This document shows, in pieces, positions 9,411 to 40,249 of a DNA stretch of 64,000 nt. The stretch lies in NCBI GenBank assembly GCA_017459075.1, contig JAFUDQ010000007.1:1-64000 (forward strand), in the 5' to 3' direction. The stretch is from Bacteroidales bacterium. Lineage in GTDB: Bacteria; Bacteroidota; Bacteroidia; Bacteroidales; UBA932. Position 1 is the stretch's first letter. Each line of letters opens with the position of its first letter. The translations under genes were made by a program, and so were the position numbers. The notes below the pieces were generated by a model. That model did no database searches. It saw nothing but the letters and a program-made list of their open reading frames with translations, and was not told the origin of the DNA.

Positions 9411-10679
9411 ATGAAAAGGCTCCTACTTGCTACAACTCTTGTTCTTATAATGGCAGCATGCTGCCGGACAGAAAACCATCAGCCTACCGGAACGGCTGCA
9501 GATGGCCCCGAATGGCTTTTCCTTGGTAAAGGCCAGATTAACCTAAGCACAAAGGCAGACACCATCGGCACCTTCTGCCTGACGCTGGTTACAGACCGCT
9601 CACTGATGGCCTCGGTTCAGGACACCGTATTCGCGCAGGAAGTCACCATCGGACCGGATAGTTTATTAAACATCGGCCTGGGAGCCATGGAAGCGGGTTT
9701 TTATGAGGTTCGCTATGCAGACAGGCACTTTAGCATAGGTGTGCGCCCGGATGAAGTTGTGAGCGTTCCCGATGCAAAGGAGGATTTTGATGCATTCTGG
9801 GACTCGACGCTCTCAGAGCTGTCAGGGATTCCCCTTGAGGCGAAATGGACGCCCATGCCGGAGAATTCCAACGACATAAGGGAGAGTTTCAAGGTCAGTT
9901 TCAAGTCCCTTGGCGGGGCGGAAGCGGGCGGCATCGTCTGCATCCCCGTTGCGGAAGGAAAATATCCGGTTCATATTCAATATATGGGTTACGGGGCCGA
10001 TGTCTACCCCTTCGACCCTTCGGCAAATCCGGACAGGATTGACTTCCTTGTCAGTGTCCGCGGTCAGGGAATTTTCCGCGAGAGCGAAGGACGGTGGATA
10101 GACCGCGGCCTTGCATCCAAGGAAGAGTTTTATTACCGTGGAGCTTTTGCGGACGTCAAACGGGCCGTGGATTTTGCTGCATCCCTTGAAAAGGCTGATA
10201 CTCAGAAACTTATAGCTTATGGTGAGAGTCAGGGAGGTGCATTTACCGTTGTTTCTGCCGCCCTTGACAGCCGCATCAAAGCCATTGCACCGGCCGTTCC
10301 CTTCATGGGAGACTTCCCGGACTATGGCAGCATCGTTTGGTGGCCCGTCCATGAAGTCCTTGAGGCCGCCGACGCGGAAGGAATACCCCATGAGGCAATT
10401 TATGACCTTCTAAGCTACTTTGATGTGAAGAACTTCGCGCCGCGGGTAAAATGCCCTGCCTACATGTCCTTCGGCCTTCAGGATCCCACCTGCCCGCCTC
10501 ATACGAATTTTGCCATTTACAATAATCTGGGCAGCACAGAAAAGCATTTCCTGTGCGTTCCTACCTGCGGGCATTCAATGTGGCGTGAAGAGGCCTGGCC
10601 CCCTGTCCGGACGGAATTCTTCAATGAAGTCTTAGGCCTGGCTGAGCCGTCTCAACCGACCTCTATTCAAAAGAATTAA
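9411..10679 (+). CDS. CE7-type acetyl-xylan esterase / deacetylase lipoprotein
   Basis: A 422-residue alpha/beta hydrolase of the acetyl-xylan esterase / cephalosporin-C deacetylase family. The start at 9411 gives a lipoprotein signal (MKRLLLATT..., lipobox IMAAC). The nucleophile serine is in GESQGG (about residue 272), the acid in FGLQDPTCPP (about 358) and the histidine in CGHSMW (about 387); RGQG and the YMGYG region fit the oxyanion-hole side. The N-terminal ~120 residues form an extra domain before the catalytic part. It would remove acetyl groups from plant oligosaccharides at the cell envelope. Its 3' end overlaps the convergent LuxR gene by 17 bases. Confidence 0.8.
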   Translation: MKRLLLATTLVLIMAACCRTENHQPTGTAADGPEWLFLGKGQINLSTKADTIGTFCLTLVTDRSLMASVQDTVFAQEVTIGPDSLLNIGLGAMEAGFYEVRYADRHFSIGVRPDEVVSVPDAKEDFDAFWDSTLSELSGIPLEAKWTPMPENSNDIRESFKVSFKSLGGAEAGGIVCIPVAEGKYPVHIQYMGYGADVYPFDPSANPDRIDFLVSVRGQGIFRESEGRWIDRGLASKEEFYYRGAFADVKRAVDFAASLEKADTQKLIAYGESQGGAFTVVSAALDSRIKAIAPAVPFMGDFPDYGSIVWWPVHEVLEAADAEGIPHEAIYDLLSYFDVKNFAPRVKCPAYMSFGLQDPTCPPHTNFAIYNNLGSTEKHFLCVPTCGHSMWREEAWPPVRTEFFNEVLGLAEPSQPTSIQKN

Positions 10680-11256
10680 CGTCTATCAGATTATTAAGCA
10701 GAGCATAAACTGTAAGGCCGGCGACAGTTTTGATTCCGGTCTTGCGGGTTATGTTTTTGCGGTGTGTAATAACCGTGTAGATAGAGATATTGTACTGGTC
10801 TGCAATCTCTTTGTTGAGCATTCCCTTCGCAACTGAAACAAGAATCTCCTTCTCCCTGGCGCTGAGCTCTTCGCCCTCTGTCTTCGGGGAATCATTCTCT
10901 GCGCTTATGGCCTCCCTCACTTTGCGGATAACCGTTGTGGGATCATCATACAGGCCGATGATTTCATCGAACTGCTTCAGGCTCTCTTCGTCGCACAGGC
11001 CGCTTTGGAAGGCAATCACGGAAGCATCGGAATACTCCGAAACGCGGGCCCTCGCCTTATGGCGGGACTCATAGTCAAGAACGGAAGGGTCAAGTATGAT
11101 TGCATCTGCGTCGATGGAGCGCAGGCGTGTCAGGCTGCTCTGCGAAAGGTCCCTCAGTATTCCGGCAACCTGGAACTCGCCAAGGTCTGAAAAAATGCTT
11201 TCCAGCCCCCTGGCGGCTATGATTGAAGGAACTATTACAAGGACTTTCTTACTCAT
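10663..11256 (-). CDS. LuxR-type regulator with degenerate receiver
   Basis: A 197-residue protein from the ATG at 11256 (MSKKVLVIV). The N-terminal part has the receiver fold, but the acidic pair is replaced by VPS and the conserved lysine is missing, although an Asp is kept in IILDPS; it is therefore a pseudo-receiver unlikely to be phosphorylated normally. The C-terminal LuxR HTH is intact (LSAREKEILVSVAKGMLNKE ... TVITHRKNITRKTG). Its ATG overlaps the last 8 bases of the hemerythrin gene, which suggests translational coupling and a functional pair sensing an iron- or redox-linked signal. Confidence 0.8.
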   Translation of the reverse strand: MSKKVLVIVPSIIAARGLESIFSDLGEFQVAGILRDLSQSSLTRLRSIDADAIILDPSVLDYESRHKARARVSEYSDASVIAFQSGLCDEESLKQFDEIIGLYDDPTTVIRKVREAISAENDSPKTEGEELSAREKEILVSVAKGMLNKEIADQYNISIYTVITHRKNITRKTGIKTVAGLTVYALLNNLIDVNSFE

Positions 11257-11953
11257 GGCGCTCAAGTTTGTTAACGGCAGGGACAAGGATGTTGTCCTCT
11301 ATGGAAGTATGTTTCTCCAAGTCTGTGCGCAGCAGGAACAGCTTCAGCAGTACATTGCTGATAGTCAGGTTGTTGCACTCTGCCGGCATATACTTCATGA
11401 CAATATTGATGAGGTCTCCAAGCTTCTCGTCAATGTTGGAGTGGTTCTCCTCAAACTGCTCGATGGAGAAGTTCTTGTCCCCGCCCCTCTGGAGCAGAGT
11501 CGCCACATAAGGAAATACTACTGTTTCCTCATACTGGAAATGCTTGGCCAGCTCTTCTTTATAAGCGGCAAAGAAACCGCGGATGATTTTTTTATGGGCA
11601 GCATCGCAGGGCTCAATCATTTTGCCTATGGCTTCTTCAAGCTCCGTGAGCACTTCGCCGGTATAATAATCGTGGCTCTGGTGCAGATATTTGACGATGT
11701 CCTTGATGCTTACTTTGCGCAAAACCTCGTGGGAAGGCATGTATCCGTCAATTGTATAGACGTTGCAAATGAGCAGGAAAGTATCTGCTGATACACCGGC
11801 TTTTTCGCATACTTCTTCCACAGTTTCTTCTCCGAAGCCGAAGCCCAGCCCAAGTCTTTGCAGAACACCAAGAAGCAGGGAATTGCCTTCCATGAGCTCC
11901 GCCATTTTCATGGAGCTGGAATAGCGTAAAACGGAACCATTCTTTATTGTCAT
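11249..11953 (-). CDS. Hemerythrin (HHE) domain protein, ScdA/YtfE (RIC)-like
   Basis: A 234-residue protein starting MTIKNG at 11953, just behind a good promoter. Residues 15-70 resemble the ScdA_N domain of iron-cluster repair proteins; the rest is a four-helix HHE domain with iron ligands in the pattern H..H (HQSHDYY), HxxxE (HFQYEE), H (ENHSNIDEK) and HxxxED (EKHTSIEDN). RIC proteins handle iron or NO damage at Fe-S centres, and hemerythrins bind O2 or NO. The DNA-binding partner encoded directly downstream suggests a sensing rather than purely repair role. Confidence 0.8.
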   Translation of the reverse strand: MTIKNGSVLRYSSSMKMAELMEGNSLLLGVLQRLGLGFGFGEETVEEVCEKAGVSADTFLLICNVYTIDGYMPSHEVLRKVSIKDIVKYLHQSHDYYTGEVLTELEEAIGKMIEPCDAAHKKIIRGFFAAYKEELAKHFQYEETVVFPYVATLLQRGGDKNFSIEQFEENHSNIDEKLGDLINIVMKYMPAECNNLTISNVLLKLFLLRTDLEKHTSIEDNILVPAVNKLERHE

Positions 11954-11968
11954 ATCTGATATTTTTTG

Positions 11969-11999
11969 CAAAAATAATTTCTTGCCGCCTTTTGTCAAA
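11969..11999 (-). promoter_or_regulatory. Promoter of the hemerythrin-LuxR operon
   Basis: On the minus strand TTTG (11999-11996), 19 bases, then TATTTTTG (11976-11969): a full match to the bacteroidete TTTG-N19-TAnnTTTG pattern. The start codon at 11953 follows 15 bases after the -7 box. This makes the pair independent of the GH92 gene upstream. Confidence 0.75.
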
Positions 12000-14435: not shown

Positions 14436-14981
14436 TTATTCAATAATTCTAATGCTAAATTCACAACCGCAAAAATTTTGGTTATAGAAGTTCTGTTCCT
14501 TGATGATTTCAGAGCGACGCTGCTGGAGGCCCCCCTTCCGCCAGTTCTGCCCCCACCAATGGACCCCGGGAAAAAGCCCGCAGGCAAAACTGCCGGCCGC
14601 ATCCACCTGCTCCAAATCCTTCCAGCGGGACGACGCCAGGCTTGTCGTCAAGGTATCCAGACCATGCTCCCGGGCGTATTTCGCCGCCCGTTCCAGGCGA
14701 AAACGGAAGCAACGCATGCAGCGCTCACCCCGCTCTGGCTCATGCTCGAAGCCCTTTATGGCTTCCCGCCACGCCGCGTGGTCGTAGTCATCCTCTATAA
14801 CCTCTATGCCAAATTTGTCGCAATACCGCTTGCATTCCGCCAGGCGCAGGTCGTATTCTACCTTTGGAACAATGTTAGAATTGGAGAAAAACACCACCGG
14901 TTTTACCCCATCATTGTCCAGTTTTTCTATAATAGCCCCGCTGCACGGCGCGCAGCAAACATGAAGCAACATCTTTTCCAT
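14436..14981 (-). CDS. queH: Epoxyqueuosine reductase QueH
   Basis: A 181-residue DUF208/QueH protein. It has the N-terminal CCAPCSG motif (C9, C10, C13) and the second cysteine pair in GERCMRCFRFRLERAA (C88, C91) that bind the Fe-S cluster and metal in this family. It catalyses the last step of queuosine synthesis, reducing epoxyqueuosine to queuosine in tRNA, replacing the unrelated QueG. It appears to be monocistronic, with a -7 box very close to the ATG. Confidence 0.9.
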   Translation of the reverse strand: MEKMLLHVCCAPCSGAIIEKLDNDGVKPVVFFSNSNIVPKVEYDLRLAECKRYCDKFGIEVIEDDYDHAAWREAIKGFEHEPERGERCMRCFRFRLERAAKYAREHGLDTLTTSLASSRWKDLEQVDAAGSFACGLFPGVHWWGQNWRKGGLQQRRSEIIKEQNFYNQNFCGCEFSIRIIE

Positions 14982-15129: not shown

Positions 15130-15204
15130 TTGATTATCAAGTACTTACGCATTTCAACTTAGCAAATATTGCCAAGTTGAATCATGTAACTCATTGATAA
15201 TCAA
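15130..15204. repeat. 75-bp palindromic extragenic repeat, copy A
   Basis: Bounded by TTGATTATCAA (15130-15140) and TTGATAATCAA (15194-15204), with inner arms CAACTTAGCAA and TTGCCAAGTTG. The whole element is an imperfect palindrome. In reverse complement it matches copies at 36623-36696 and 40185-40249. Confidence 0.8.
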
Positions 15205-15270: not shown

Positions 15271-15760
15271 TTATAAGTTTAAGTACTTTTTTGCTGCATC
15301 GAGAATGGCCTCATCGCTTTCTGCATCAAACGATGTTAACATGTAATAAGACATTGTCAGAAAACTGTCCGTATCCATATAAGAGATATCTTTCCGAATG
15401 TCTTTCTGCGTATGTTTCCAGCCATATATCATTGTCTGATATGCCTTTGTGAGCATAGTACGCAATGGGTGATTTTCGATGGACTGTAATAAGTATGCAC
15501 GATACCCTAAATTATCTTTCTGTCTTTGATATTCGTAATACCATTTGTTTAAGGAAGGCTGACTGAGCTGTCCTATGCACACATATTACCTGCGTATTTA
15601 CATTTTGCTACTGAAACACAGAGTCCAAGCACTCTTCAACAAAAGCCCAGTTGTAATAGCACGGAATAATGACAGATATACCTTTATTCAATGACTCATT
15701 CCCCATAGGATGACGTTCCATCCTATGGGGAAATCCGTATTTTAAATTATCGTCTTTCAT
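15271..15760 (-). pseudogene. Glycosyltransferase family 2 gene, internally deleted
   Basis: Starting from an ATG at 15760 that overlaps the previous stop (ATGA), 50 codons read MKDDNLKYGFPHRMERHPMG, then a typical GT2 opening SVIIPCYYNWAFVEECLDSV, and end at a TAG (15608-15610). A second fragment in another frame (15582-15271, about 103 codons, ending AKKYLNL) is likely the C-terminal remnant. An intact GT2 has about 250-330 residues, so the catalytic core (DXD region) is missing. A perfect 12-bp inverted repeat (15701-15712/15719-15730) lies inside the first fragment. That the second fragment belongs to the same gene is inferred from order and strand. Confidence 0.6.
15701..15730. repeat. 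Perfect 12-bp hairpin in the GT2 remnant
   Basis: CCCCATAGGATG, a 6-base loop, and CATCCTATGGGG. It lies about 30 bases after the ATG of the decayed glycosyltransferase on the minus strand. It has no T-tract, so a terminator is unlikely; it could be an inserted palindrome or a translation-control hairpin. Confidence 0.5.
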
Positions 15761-16560
15761 TTGAATCCCTGTTTTAGTGCTTTAGAAACATTCTTGGCAA
15801 TATTCAGGCGTCCTTCTCGCTGTGTAATTCTGACATTATCCTGCTCTAATAAAGTGATAACATACTCCCAAAGAAGCCTTGCTTCTTCCCAGGCATCATC
15901 TGTATATAAAGCATTGGCTACATTTTCTGCCGCGGATACAAGCATGGCCCGTAGCATATCGCTGCCGTTTTTATTCAGGTTGTTGCAAATGGTTAAGTAT
16001 AGCCCCAAGTGGTTGTTAAACCGCTGCATACACTGGATTTTCTTTTCTTCAAGATCTTTCTTCTTTCCTTTCAGTTCCTTAAGGCGCGCTTGAAGCTTTA
16101 CCTGGGCTTTTGACCTTGTGCTCTCAAAACAATCTTGCACTTCGAGGATGTCGTCTTCAATATAGGACAGGTATGTATCCAAATATCGTCTTTTTGATAG
16201 GAAAGATTCAAATCGATTGATGATCCATCGTGCCGTAAAACTGGTTTCCGCATTCTGCTGAGGGATGGAAAGAATTGCGTAAAATCGCTCAATGTATTCT
16301 TCAAATTCACCTAGTACGATTGCTGCATCCCAAGAATAAATGCGCTGTTGGGGAACCTGATGAAAAGCCAGCTCAAGATTCTTTAGGTTGGAAACGACTT
16401 GCATATCTGACAAATCGATGCCTTTTTGGACCAGATCTTCCAATGTGTCCAGAACTGCGGTAAGATGTTCCCTTAGGAAGGCTGGCATTTCTGACTGCCC
16501 GACCTCCTGCTTTTCAGCCTCCTTTATGAGGCGTTTAATGAATGGCCATCCTTTGTTCAT
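15757..16560 (-). CDS. Unknown helical protein of the FtsZ/ZapA-like cluster
   Basis: A 267-residue protein that I do not recognise. It is predicted largely helical, without signal peptide or membrane segment, and has a long charged coiled-coil-like stretch around residues 145-180 (LQARLKELKGKKKDLEEKK). It is translationally coupled on both sides: its ATG overlaps the stop of the frameshifted extension of the ZapA-like gene, and its stop overlaps the ATG of the GT2 remnant. Base composition is visibly AT-richer than the flanking sus and malQ genes. A cytoplasmic structural or adaptor role fits but is not shown. Confidence 0.6.
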   Translation of the reverse strand: MNKGWPFIKRLIKEAEKQEVGQSEMPAFLREHLTAVLDTLEDLVQKGIDLSDMQVVSNLKNLELAFHQVPQQRIYSWDAAIVLGEFEEYIERFYAILSIPQQNAETSFTARWIINRFESFLSKRRYLDTYLSYIEDDILEVQDCFESTRSKAQVKLQARLKELKGKKKDLEEKKIQCMQRFNNHLGLYLTICNNLNKNGSDMLRAMLVSAAENVANALYTDDAWEEARLLWEYVITLLEQDNVRITQREGRLNIAKNVSKALKQGFK

Positions 16561-16710
16561 TGTATTTCCTCCATGATAGTTATGCTTGTTTTATAATCAA
16601 ATGTTATGAGTCGGGCAATCGAAGCAACATGGCCAATATAGTTTATTGACCATGTTTTTGAATATTTCTTTACATTTTCCTCAAGTTCTTTAAGCGAGGT
16701 TTGGCCTCTG
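16557..16710 (-). pseudogene. Frame-shifted 3' extension of the ZapA-like gene
   Basis: Beyond the TAG at 16711-16713 the neighbouring frame stays open for about 50 codons (LSRGQTSLKELEENVKKYSK ... TIMEEIQ) and ends in a TGA overlapping the ATG of the next gene, as real genes in this cluster do. The frame has no ATG, GTG or TTG start of its own. Removing one base in the CTTCCTTCTT run before the TAG would join it to the ZapA-like frame as a 181-residue protein. An assembly error would look the same. Confidence 0.5.
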
Positions 16711-17103
16711 CTAAGAAGGAAGATACATTTGAAGCAGCATGATGCGTGACAGCTCTTCGGTTGATTTGTCAGGGTATCTTGCTAATAAACTGAGATATCT
16801 TTTATCAAGGTCTTTTTCTACTTGTTTTAAGATAGTTTTTGCTTGTTCTGTAGTTGAGATTGTAAACTCTCTGCTAATAACTTTTATCTTTATGCGTGTT
16901 GATGGTGCCCCTGAGGGGATATCATGTTTCTTCACTTCTGCCTGAAGAACCAAGTACAAAATCTTGCTCGTTTCATCCATGTCAGGATTGGTATTTGCAA
17001 GAGACTCGTAAGCAGAGTTAATAGCGGCAACTGCACTTTCTGTGGCTTCGGACTCTTCCAGTAGGAATTCCTTTCCGACGATAGAATAATATTTCGTAAA
17101 CAT
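16711..17103 (-). CDS. ZapA-like protein with two tandem ZapA-type units
   Basis: A 130-residue protein made of two segments with the same pattern: KYYSIVGKEFLLEESEATES (about 4-23) with the following helix, and RIKIKVISREFTISTTEQAK (about 68-87) with its helix. Each matches the ZapA plan: a beta-hairpin with GREY/GREF, then E-rich residues and a helix with the spacing of cell-division ZapA. Typical ZapA is 85-110 residues with one unit. ZapA bundles FtsZ filaments; here the preceding gene encodes an FtsZ-like C-terminal domain. The gene probably continued in another frame to 16557. The assignment rests on pattern comparison by eye. Confidence 0.5.
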   Translation of the reverse strand: MFTKYYSIVGKEFLLEESEATESAVAAINSAYESLANTNPDMDETSKILYLVLQAEVKKHDIPSGAPSTRIKIKVISREFTISTTEQAKTILKQVEKDLDKRYLSLLARYPDKSTEELSRIMLLQMYLPS

Positions 17104-17129
17104 TTAGTTTATCAGATTATTTCTATTTA

Positions 17130-17657
17130 CTATGAATGGAGTATGAGGATGCTGGCTTGTAGGCTGCGGCAGTATGGTTGGCGATAGTCCGGGATGGTAG
17201 AGCCGAAAATGAGCCGGGCGCGCTTCCCGAAACAGGTCTTCATCGCTTCACGGAAATCATCGTAATAACAAGCATCCAGACGGCAGTCATCTTCTGATGA
17301 GGCAAAAAGGAGCATAACATAATCACCATCGCGGATTACGCCGCTAAGGGCAGCTTCTGCTCCGTCAATCAATTCATCTACCTCCCAACCATCGGCTCCA
17401 ACCGTCGGAAGTATGACCAGCTCCTTGTTCTTACGGAATAAAGTCCTGAAATCATTCGGATCCACAGTTGGTCTGCCATGATACTTAGATTCCATGTGAT
17501 CCCAAAACAAATTGAGATAATTCATAGCCTCTTCTTCATCACGGATAATTGTCATTTCATCTATTTTAAGAAGAGCCTCGGTGCTATAGTTGTAAGATTC
17601 GTCTAAAGGGATGAAATCGTCAGATATGTAATCTGGATTATTAGTCGCTTTACTCAT
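17130..17657 (-). CDS. FtsZ C-terminal-domain-only protein (predicted)
   Basis: A 175-residue protein matching FtsZ from helix H7 onward. A helix-rich segment (about 35-63) is followed by PTVDPNDFRTLFRKNKELVI, which parallels the FtsZ T7-loop region (NVDFADVRTV), then an alternating strand/helix part ending GKRARLIFGSTIPDYRQ, close to the FtsZ segment with IIFGAxID, and a final strand. The GTP-binding domain with the GGGTGTG loop is absent and there is no space for it: the malQ stop lies 58 bases upstream. It therefore cannot bind GTP alone, but isolated FtsZ C-terminal domains can fold and cap filaments. It heads an AT-rich cluster with a ZapA-like protein. The family call is by eye and needs a profile search. 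Confidence 0.55.
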   Translation of the reverse strand: MSKATNNPDYISDDFIPLDESYNYSTEALLKIDEMTIIRDEEEAMNYLNLFWDHMESKYHGRPTVDPNDFRTLFRKNKELVILPTVGADGWEVDELIDGAEAALSGVIRDGDYVMLLFASSEDDCRLDACYYDDFREAMKTCFGKRARLIFGSTIPDYRQPYCRSLQASILILHS

Positions 17658-17715: not shown

Positions 17716-20286
17716 CTATTTTCCCCTGCCGGAGGCGGATATCATGCCAGAGAGCTTCTGGGTGAAGCTGCGGTTGGCGATGAGGTCCTCAAGGGTTATG
17801 TGCATGCGGTAACGCCAGTAGAAGCGGGGGATGGCAGGCACGTTGATGCGCTCATCGGCCGGGTCTCCGGGATATCGCAAGTCTTCGTCAGTTGCAAGGT
17901 AGTCCTGCAGCGGCAGGATGCAAAGCATTGCGGGAGAATCCAGATGCGATTTCACAATCATTTCTGCAACCCAGGGCTCGCAGAACCAAGGCATATCGTC
18001 TCCGCGGTGCAGCATATTGCGCCAGAAATGCTCCGTAACCTCGCGGTCTTCCTCCCACCATGCGCGGATGTTGGAAGTGTCGTGAGTACCGGTTGCGCAA
18101 ACGCAGCGGTAAGGATAAACTGCCGGATTCGCAAACTCTTCAGTAACGCTCTTTGGCATACGCTGGATTTCAAGCGACAAGATTCCAAGTTCGTTCATTA
18201 CGGAAGGAACGCATTCCGGAATCATTCCAAGGTCCTCGCCACAGGTAAGCATGCCGGTAGAAGAGAGGATTGAAGGCAGTTTGAACATTGCAGAATCCCG
18301 CCAGAAGTCATTGTGACGGCGATAGAAGAAATCATCGTGCAGGCGTGTGAAAGCCTCTTTCTGTCCGTCATTCAGGCAGCGGAAAGCATAGGAATTCTGT
18401 GCAGAAATCCTCGGGTGCCAATAGCCCTTCTTGCGGGGGTCTTCAACAAACAGGACATCGTCCAAAAGAGCCAGAAGGCCATTCTTAATATCCTCATCCT
18501 CAACTGTTTCCACAACCTTGCGCTGGGTGGAGACCTCCGGTGCAAGTGCGCCGTCAACAATGTATTTCTGACGGACCACATCGGCCTTGACGCCAAAAAT
18601 CTCGTTCAGTATCCAGTCGTAGAGCAGAGGTTTGCTATAAAGTCCTGAACTGATGTTGAATCCGTTTGCAGCCAGCTCGTCCTCAGAGAACGGCAGGGCC
18701 GGGTTAAAGTGGCCAAGAAGGCCGTGAACAGCATCCATCGGAATCTCCCAGATTCGGAAGAAACCAAGGATATGGTCAATGCGGAAGGCGTCAAAATACT
18801 CGCTCATCTTGTGCATGCGGGCCTTCCACCAGGCAAAGCCGTCCTCTGACATCTTCTCCCAGTTATATGTGGGGAAACCCCAGTTCTGGCCAAGAGTAGA
18901 GAAGGCATCCGGCGGTGCTCCTGCCTGTGAATCAAGATGATACAGCTCCGGATAAACCCAGGCGTCAACGCTTGTGCGGCTTATGCCGATAGGCAGGTCT
19001 CCCTTAAGGGCAACACCCTTGGAATGAGCATAGGCCACAACTTCCTTAAGCTGCTTGTCAAGATGGAACTGGACAAAATAGTGATAACCTACCTCTTCCT
19101 GATGCTCCCTGGCCCATTTTGCAACGGCCTTTGGAGAATAATTCGCCATCTTTCCCCATTTGGAGAAGTCCGGGGTCTTATATTTGTCCCTGAGGCAGCA
19201 GAAAACGGCATAAGGCTCAAGCCAGGAAACATTGGCATCGTAGAACTTCTTGAAGGCCGTGCTTGCCAGAACCTTGCGTCCTGAGGCAGACTCATAAACC
19301 TCCTTCAGCAGGGCGTTTTTGGCAGAGTTAACCTTCTCATAATCAATTTTCGGAAGGGCGTTCAGTTCTTCCTGAAGAGCCTTGTATTCCTTGTTTTCCT
19401 TTACTCCGGCAGCTGGCAGGTGAATAAACTGCGGATGCAGGGCGAAGGTGGTGTTGGCGTTGTAAGGATAAGAATCCGTCCATGAATGTGTCATGGTAGT
19501 GTCATTGATAGGCAGCAGCTGAATCACATTCTGGCCGGTCTCTGCTGCCCAGTCAACAAGAAGTTTTATATCGTTGAACTCTCCTACGCCAAAGCCCTCA
19601 CGGCTGCGAAGTGAGAATACAGGAACGGCAACACCGGCTCCACGCCAGTTGTTACGCTTGAAAACAGGCTCAGGCTCATTAACAATGACATGAGCGCTCC
19701 CGGCATCATCGGCATTATAATATCTGTTAACGCCGCTTTCCCACTGAACGGGGATAAAAGGATCGTCACTGATTATCAGGAACTTATATTCAAAAGAAGC
19801 ATCGCCCGGCAGGCTGATTTTCCATACAGGGAAGGCCGATGAGTCCATTGGCACGGGGCTGCCCCAGTCGTTGAAATCGCCGCTAATGGCAAGGCGCTCG
19901 CCGGGGCGCAGGGTAGGTGCGCAAACGTTCAGGGCGAGGTAGCCGGAAGCGGAGCGCTTCCCCTCATCGCTACGCTTGAAGATCACATCCTTGAAAAAGC
20001 CGGTCTTGAATGGAGCGTTCTCTGAAACGTCATTCCATTTGTCCTTGATTAGCAGTTCCTTAACGGCCCTGCTGCTGTAGCTGTGGCCGGAAGCCTCACA
20101 GCGAAGCTGCTTCCCGGCCTCGTCGCAAAGCAGGAAACAGTACTCACCGCTTGACGGCATATCTTCAAGGGTGAGGGTCCACAAGCCGTCTTCGTGCCCT
20201 TCCATAGGATACTGTCGGCCTTCTGTAACCAAGACCAATCTTTGCCCCCATAGGGCCCTGTAATTGAGTGAAATTCTGATGCGCAT
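17716..20286 (-). CDS. malQ: 4-alpha-glucanotransferase, CBM20-GH77 (MalQ)
   Basis: An 856-residue cytoplasmic amylomaltase of the bacteroidete type: two N-terminal starch-binding (CBM20-like) domains (about 1-110 and 120-220; the second with SGDFNDWG) and a GH77 catalytic domain. Signatures are GDLPIGISRTSVDAW, the nucleophile D504 in FDAFRIDHILG, E684 in CGEDLGMIP and THDTSNIRAWWEED. It disproportionates maltodextrins, releasing glucose. No signal peptide. It starts 15 bases after the OPA-family transporter, so both share a transcript, and it completes the starch pathway encoded from 25462 onward. Confidence 0.93.
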   Translation of the reverse strand: MRIRISLNYRALWGQRLVLVTEGRQYPMEGHEDGLWTLTLEDMPSSGEYCFLLCDEAGKQLRCEASGHSYSSRAVKELLIKDKWNDVSENAPFKTGFFKDVIFKRSDEGKRSASGYLALNVCAPTLRPGERLAISGDFNDWGSPVPMDSSAFPVWKISLPGDASFEYKFLIISDDPFIPVQWESGVNRYYNADDAGSAHVIVNEPEPVFKRNNWRGAGVAVPVFSLRSREGFGVGEFNDIKLLVDWAAETGQNVIQLLPINDTTMTHSWTDSYPYNANTTFALHPQFIHLPAAGVKENKEYKALQEELNALPKIDYEKVNSAKNALLKEVYESASGRKVLASTAFKKFYDANVSWLEPYAVFCCLRDKYKTPDFSKWGKMANYSPKAVAKWAREHQEEVGYHYFVQFHLDKQLKEVVAYAHSKGVALKGDLPIGISRTSVDAWVYPELYHLDSQAGAPPDAFSTLGQNWGFPTYNWEKMSEDGFAWWKARMHKMSEYFDAFRIDHILGFFRIWEIPMDAVHGLLGHFNPALPFSEDELAANGFNISSGLYSKPLLYDWILNEIFGVKADVVRQKYIVDGALAPEVSTQRKVVETVEDEDIKNGLLALLDDVLFVEDPRKKGYWHPRISAQNSYAFRCLNDGQKEAFTRLHDDFFYRRHNDFWRDSAMFKLPSILSSTGMLTCGEDLGMIPECVPSVMNELGILSLEIQRMPKSVTEEFANPAVYPYRCVCATGTHDTSNIRAWWEEDREVTEHFWRNMLHRGDDMPWFCEPWVAEMIVKSHLDSPAMLCILPLQDYLATDEDLRYPGDPADERINVPAIPRFYWRYRMHITLEDLIANRSFTQKLSGMISASGRGK

Positions 20287-36622: not shown

Positions 36623-36696
36623 TGATTATCAATGAGTTATGTGTTTTAACTTAGCAAAATTGACGGAGTTAAAATAAGTAAGTGCTTGATAATCAA
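36623..36696. repeat. 74-bp palindromic extragenic repeat, copy B
   Basis: Bounded by TGATTATCAA (36623-36632) and TTGATAATCAA (36686-36696), with the core TTTTAACTTAGCAAAATT and its partner. It lies between susG and the second amylase, 15 bases before the latter's start, in opposite orientation to copy A. Confidence 0.8.
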
Positions 36697-36711
36697 TGAA
36701 TATATAATTTT

Positions 36712-40167: not shown

Positions 40168-40184
40168 GCTCGTGTTGATTATCA

Positions 40185-40249
40185 ATGAGTTAGACAATTC
40201 AACTTAGCAAATTTTACCAAGTTAAAATGCGTAAGTAATTGAAAATCAG
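40185..40249. repeat. 65-bp palindromic extragenic repeat, copy C
   Basis: Starts TTGATTATCAATGAGTTA (40185-40202) and runs through CAACTTAGCAAATTTTACC to a degenerate right end TTGAAAATCA. Same orientation as copy B. It lies in the 109-base gap between susA and susB. Confidence 0.75.

Follow-up and report, generated by a model that had tools for sequence, protein, structure and literature searches.

A short AT-rich run of minus-strand genes in Bacteroidales bacterium (GTDB lineage Bacteria; Bacteroidota; Bacteroidia; Bacteroidales; UBA932) raises the question of whether the C-terminal domain of the division protein FtsZ is used there on its own, beside a rebuilt ZapA, and what such a pair might do to the host Z ring. 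The genes lie in a stretch of 64,000 nucleotides that was analysed whole and is called the window here (assembly GCA_017459075.1, contig JAFUDQ010000007.1, positions 1 to 64,000), flanked by malQ, a GH77 gene (17716-20286), and queH (14436-14981). In transcription order they encode P0001 (175 amino acids, aa), P0002 (130 aa) and P0003 (267 aa), followed by a glycosyltransferase in pieces, the last being P0004 (103 aa); an earlier, sequence-only reading had placed these four frames at the positions given below, and all were confirmed there. Our tentative answer, reached by analysis, is that the cluster is an operon acquired by horizontal transfer and partly decayed, of which the first two products may be dominant-negative Z-ring parts; that it is a functionless remnant is about equally likely. 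The features on which this answer turns are as follows.

17130..17657, minus strand: P0001, 175 aa; a low-confidence N-terminal tail of ~35 residues, then a likely FtsZ C-terminal-domain-like fold (model and alignment)
17449..17468 (approximate to a few bases), minus strand: T7-loop-like segment of P0001, residues 64-69, TVDPND, placed by alignment
16711..17103, minus strand: P0002, 130 aa, ZapA-like; second unit at residues 71-126 by PF05164, first unit by internal repeat

P0001 is probably a relative of the FtsZ C-terminal domain, judging by its predicted fold and by pairwise alignment. A low-confidence AlphaFold model, built template-free from the single sequence, has the FtsZ C-terminal-domain layout, with helices and strands ordered from H7 to the last strand, and 49 of the 50 listed structural rows for it are FtsZ, TubZ or tubulin. 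Residues 36-175 gave a mean local score of 57.6 to 30 FtsZ C-terminal domains (shuffles 36.7; 0/500 as high), and in global alignment to FtsZ C-terminal domains none of 300 shuffles scored as high. Among 121 chunks of open reading frames (ORFs) from the window, P0001 ranked first by z score (6.7, the next being 3.7), with a narrow lead in raw score (57.6 against 56.4). With 15 non-redundant FtsZ domains it scored 57.0, and none of 446 control chunks reached 55, a count made after removal of seven records of the locus itself and of frames that carry the FtsZ glycine motif; across three repeats of 30 shuffles each its z score was 8.9-14.5, and two of the 446 control chunks exceeded 6 (7.4 and 6.8). 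The control sets include mechanical ORFs that are possibly not genes, and the comparisons comprise FtsZ domains, shuffles and ORF chunks, RidA and ThiL sequences not being among them. The T7 loop of FtsZ has the motif NxDxxD. In the alignment, TVDPNDFRT of P0001 lies on NVDFADVRT of this loop, with Asp66 and Asp69 on both T7 aspartates, and RLIFGSTIPD lies on NVIFGAVIKD. P0001 shares with the FtsZ C-terminal domain (the PF12327 region) the predicted H7-to-last-strand order, the aligned T7 aspartates and an FGS-type strand motif.

Several results weigh against this assignment. P0001 had no match in Pfam at expect values (E) up to 5, FtsZ_C included, and no FtsZ match in PHROGs, NCBIfam, PDB sequences or PADLOC; a profile built from 30 FtsZ sequences failed to detect it, and on an FtsZ domain profile it was beaten by ~26 of 1001 controls, which were shuffled or reversed sequences. 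The confidence of its model is low (predicted local distance difference test score, pLDDT, 55). With that model, the best Foldseek E-value went to ThiL, no hit fell below E 0.001, and chains of RidA type scored within the list, so that the related folds RidA and ThiL match too. Against a library of viral models, RusA- and YjgF-type proteins came out on top, with phage FtsZ 39th. The best single-pair score to FtsZ was reached by two of 500 shuffles. Masking the two best motifs lowered the raw score to 38.0 and the z score to 4.3; much of the FtsZ signal therefore sits in those motifs. In the T7 loop, the FtsZ Asn is a Thr in P0001. The sequence-only reading of the 175-residue product as an FtsZ C-terminal domain is thus supported as likely by predicted fold and pairwise alignment but not by any family or FtsZ profile match. 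P0001 also differs from FtsZ in ending at the last strand, without C-terminal linker and tail, and in having no N-terminal GTP-binding domain with a tubulin signature (GTP, guanosine triphosphate), as judged from the 175-aa ORF, the adjoining malQ and the absence of a Pfam match; as had been noticed from the letters, there is no room for one, malQ ending 58 bases upstream.

P0002 is likely a doubled ZapA head on sequence grounds, because its C-terminal half is ZapA-like and its two halves are alike. Residues 71-126 match PF05164 in Pfam at 27.1 bits, above the cut-off of 23.8 (22.1 bits, below it, in a six-frame search of the genome), and the C-terminal half scored higher than all 500 shuffles in alignment to four ZapA-like sequences. 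Its N-terminal counterpart did not exceed chance against these four (107/500 shuffles as high), a set of this size because 12 of the 16 loci tried yielded none that passed the filter; the two halves resemble each other more than any of 1000 shuffles. A search of PDB sequences with P0002 gave no match at E up to 10. Of the two ZapA-type units first proposed, the second therefore holds by family match, and the first is supported by half-to-half likeness but not by the ZapA-like sequences. Since the PF05164 match stops at position 56 of the profile's 88 and just four residues of protein follow it, P0002 in its present frame lacks the long C-terminal helix of ZapA, from which it would also differ in carrying two heads per chain.

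The host has its own copies of both parts: FtsZ_C is matched once, by a frame of 490 codons on a different contig, and an ordinary zapA stands elsewhere in the genome, beside an RNase-Y-like gene (named by eye) that P0002 does not have as a neighbour. In FtsZ, the active site at the nucleotide of the lower subunit is completed by the upper subunit's T7 loop (in S. aureus, by D210 and D213); monomers are proposed to join through their GTP-bound top face, and MciZ caps the bottom face (PMC8936486). From these published facts we infer that P0001 would act on the nucleotide face of host FtsZ. As a likely stand-alone C-terminal (GTPase-activating) domain, it would present its T7 face, with both aspartates, to that surface, covering the GTP-bound top face, whether on free monomers or at an exposed filament end, and it might set off GTP hydrolysis while adding nothing to the filament. 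The two FtsZ domains are described as independently folding (PMC7327170), in keeping with the earlier statement that isolated C-terminal domains fold; its second half, that they can block filament growth, was not found in the literature examined. ZapA is reported to grip the FtsZ N-terminal tail and FtsZ residues 33-55 (PMC12216130), and Phe2 of the FtsZ tail is of importance in E. coli as well (PMC12754632). A single-chain double ZapA head, as P0002 may be (ZapA likeness being shown for its second half and the doubling likely), could bind FtsZ tails without forming the filament-cross-linking tetramer, given its missing helix. Direct contact between P0001 and P0002 by the known mode is not expected, because P0001 lacks both FtsZ parts that ZapA binds; acting as dominant-negative versions of two Z-ring components, the pair would make the ring weaker. 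P0003 is, at a guess, a coiled-coil partner, and the glycosyltransferase is dead.

The remaining features of the cluster are as follows.

16560..16733, minus strand: open frame, +1 to P0002, a possible lost C-terminal part; 74 codons from the previous stop, with an ATGA overlap with P0003
15757..16560, minus strand: P0003, 267 aa, helical throughout by prediction; no family in Pfam or NCBIfam
15608..15760, minus strand: start of a glycosyltransferase family 2 pseudogene, 50 codons up to a TAG, with an ATG overlapping the stop of P0003 (ATGA)
15271..15582, minus strand: P0004, 103 aa, out-of-frame tail of the glycosyltransferase pseudogene (assigned by eye)

The glycosyltransferase is a pseudogene, a sign of decay that counts against a working module: its 50-codon start matches the family 2 profile at 15.8 bits (cut-off 23.3) over profile positions 1-21 of 168 only and ends in a stop, the middle is missing, the tail lies in a different frame and no intact catalytic domain is left, as the description of a broken glycosyltransferase had anticipated. 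P0002 may likewise have been shortened by a frameshift, which would also tell against the proposal: the shifted 74-codon frame reaches the P0003 start exactly, and its last 58 codons were open in 46 of 5000 base shuffles. Within the start of the glycosyltransferase pseudogene there is, in addition, a perfect 14-base inverted repeat (15699-15732), whose folding as RNA beat all 200 shuffles (z -4.9).

These signs, along with the absence of relatives from the genomes searched, favour the possibility that the cluster is an acquired operon in decay, none of whose genes matters to the cell now, with P0001 and P0002 perhaps shortened leftovers and P0001 perhaps a full FtsZ-like protein minus its GTPase domain. 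We consider this about as likely as our proposal. Against it, P0001, P0002 and P0003 are all open, with gene-like GC content by codon position (position 2 lowest), P0001 retains both T7 aspartates, and the shifted frame after P0002 had no Pfam match and no ZapA likeness (323/500 shuffles as high).

Composition suggests that the cluster is of foreign origin. As had been pointed out, it is AT-richer than its neighbours: GC content per kilobase (kb) over 15-18 kb is 0.38, 0.40 and 0.47, against 0.48-0.55 in the four flanking kb on each side. Third-position GC is 0.46 in P0001, 0.36 in P0002 and 0.44 in P0003, against 0.60-0.66 in malQ, queH and GH92, and it is from the low values of both measures that we infer the origin. 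The tight coupling described earlier is partly right: P0001 and P0002 are 26 bases apart, P0002 and P0003 150 bases, and P0003 and the glycosyltransferase share an ATGA overlap. Flanking direct repeats were confined to short two-copy families inside the island, the window has no transfer RNA gene, and promoter-like and terminator-like sites showed no excess over shuffles. The assembly consists of 53 contigs with an estimated contamination of 8.16%, which weighs against our proposal. A palindromic repeat of ~75 bases has 19 places in this genome, which is spread over many contigs (79-88% identity on the better strand), three of them in the window and between ORFs (15130-15204, 36623-36697 and 40173-40248), with weak, mostly short matches only in 40 relatives; in the copy adjoining the cluster, folding exceeds that of shuffles by a wide margin (z -7.5). 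Because this genome-wide repeat adjoins the cluster and recurs on the same contig, misplacement of the contig is argued against. Elsewhere in the window, at 10663-11998, a LuxR-type regulator ORF overlaps an upstream hemerythrin-domain ORF on the same strand, a possible sensor-regulator pair.

Searches for relatives returned the cluster from one genome only among the collections covered, which counts against our proposal. The scans reach close relatives only, and every count includes the source genome, which matches itself each time. P0001 was found in 1 of 61 relatives, its own genome, and in 3 of 393 genomes of the order, where the two others (E 0.004 and 0.007), a helicase-like frame and a stop-containing stretch, were rejected on viewing the ORFs. 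P0002 was matched in 4 of 299 family genomes; two of the others resembled ordinary zapA genes upstream of an RNase-Y-like gene and one lay in an unrelated frame (by eye). The counts were 2 of 295 genomes for P0003, the other match falling inside a GrpE-like frame (by eye), and 3 of 295 for P0004, the others being weak and rejected after ORF view. Phages and plasmids gave no match, and viral contigs no relative, for P0001, P0002 or P0003, and pattern searches of genome contigs yielded 41 stretches for P0001 and 128 for P0003, none confirmed as relatives. With no relatives of the four products in these collections there is no conserved neighbourhood of the kind for which the sequence-only reading had proposed a search in other Bacteroidales.

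Other routes to the cluster led elsewhere. At E up to 0.05, PF05164 matched twice in 11 of 247 order genomes, own included, and of the ten others G382 alone had a second match above the cut-off, with neighbours resembling translation-factor and ribosomal-protein genes (by eye), so second zapA copies were set aside; ORFs were viewed for three of the ten (L055, L059, L062) and the rest judged by score and frame size. The C-terminal part of malQ was matched in 39 of 41 genus genomes, and 30 loci were fetched; the 29 outside the source genome, from other species of the genus, had neither queH nor any cluster product within the ~1.5 kb fetched, and since these flanks lacked queH an empty site could not be shown. 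PADLOC defence models gave nothing for P0001 or P0004 and weak partial matches for P0002 and P0003 (best E 0.0021), and a known anti-phage defence system was dropped for want of a convincing match. Separately, two FtsZ_C matches above the cut-off were present in 2 of 61 phylum-sample genomes (G762 and G778); second FtsZ-like proteins therefore occur in that genus.

A stronger version of our proposal, in which the cluster is a transferable cassette encoding a dedicated Z-ring antagonist made of Z-ring parts, with P0001 both titrating and discharging GTP-bound FtsZ and P0002 taking up FtsZ tails but not cross-linking, seems to us rather unlikely. Slightly less credit still goes to a link with surface glycans, under which P0001 would have another chorismate-mutase-like fold (of RidA or of ThiL/PurM N-terminal type) or be unrelated, and P0002 and P0003 would be partners of a surface-glycan glycosyltransferase with no tie to division. 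The ThiL, RidA, YjgF and RusA matches and the absence of an FtsZ sequence match all fit it, as does the translational coupling (ATGA) of P0003 to the glycosyltransferase start; that coupled stub is the sole basis for the polysaccharide idea itself, the neighbours tested being malQ (GH77), an MFS transporter, queH and GH92. As for P0003, the description as an unknown helical protein was upheld: its model is entirely helical (pLDDT 53.5), two of the helices exceeding 40 residues, and its best PHROG match (E 0.0036) is to one without known function.

That P0001, P0002 and P0003 assemble into a separate complex that does not target the host Z ring, for instance with the doubled ZapA head holding P0001, is improbable: the genes are adjacent and the long helices of P0003 would suit it, but polymerisation of the FtsZ type requires a nucleotide-binding domain, the stretches of FtsZ to which ZapA is described as binding are missing from P0001, and the hook-like tail motif FxP[ILMV][DE], dropped as a feature of P0001, carries no weight, being no more frequent than chance (6 of 418 ORFs) and present in none of the collected FtsZ tails.

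Against known systems, the dominant-negative proposal has partial parallels. MciZ, Kil, KilR, CbtA and SulA are, to our knowledge, not derived from FtsZ. They are described as small proteins acting on FtsZ assembly, as P0001 would be if our reading is right, and P0001 would itself present a bottom face of the kind that MciZ covers. FtsZl1 and FtsZl2 resemble P0001 in being extra FtsZ-superfamily proteins alongside conventional FtsZ; they are the reverse case, being defined by the nucleotide-binding domain that P0001 lacks, and FtsZl1 is accompanied in its operons by vWA-domain genes (PMC2875224), of which the cluster showed none. P0002 shares with ZapA (PF05164) the family match and the alignment of its second half. 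Titles and abstract starts of the open-access literature, a scope that leaves most subscription journals outside, contained no stand-alone FtsZ C-terminal domains, GTPase-domain-less FtsZ-like proteins, FtsZ/ZapA paralogue neighbourhoods or FtsZ decoys.

If the dominant-negative proposal is true, the cluster would be a natural instance of an FtsZ C-terminal domain working by itself next to a remodelled ZapA, the two forming a dominant-negative pair that occurs in nature and adds a new kind of division inhibitor, and P0001 would be a natural protein for asking whether a lone T7 face sequesters FtsZ or stimulates its GTPase. If the cluster is a remnant, it would still point to an unknown intact operon elsewhere.
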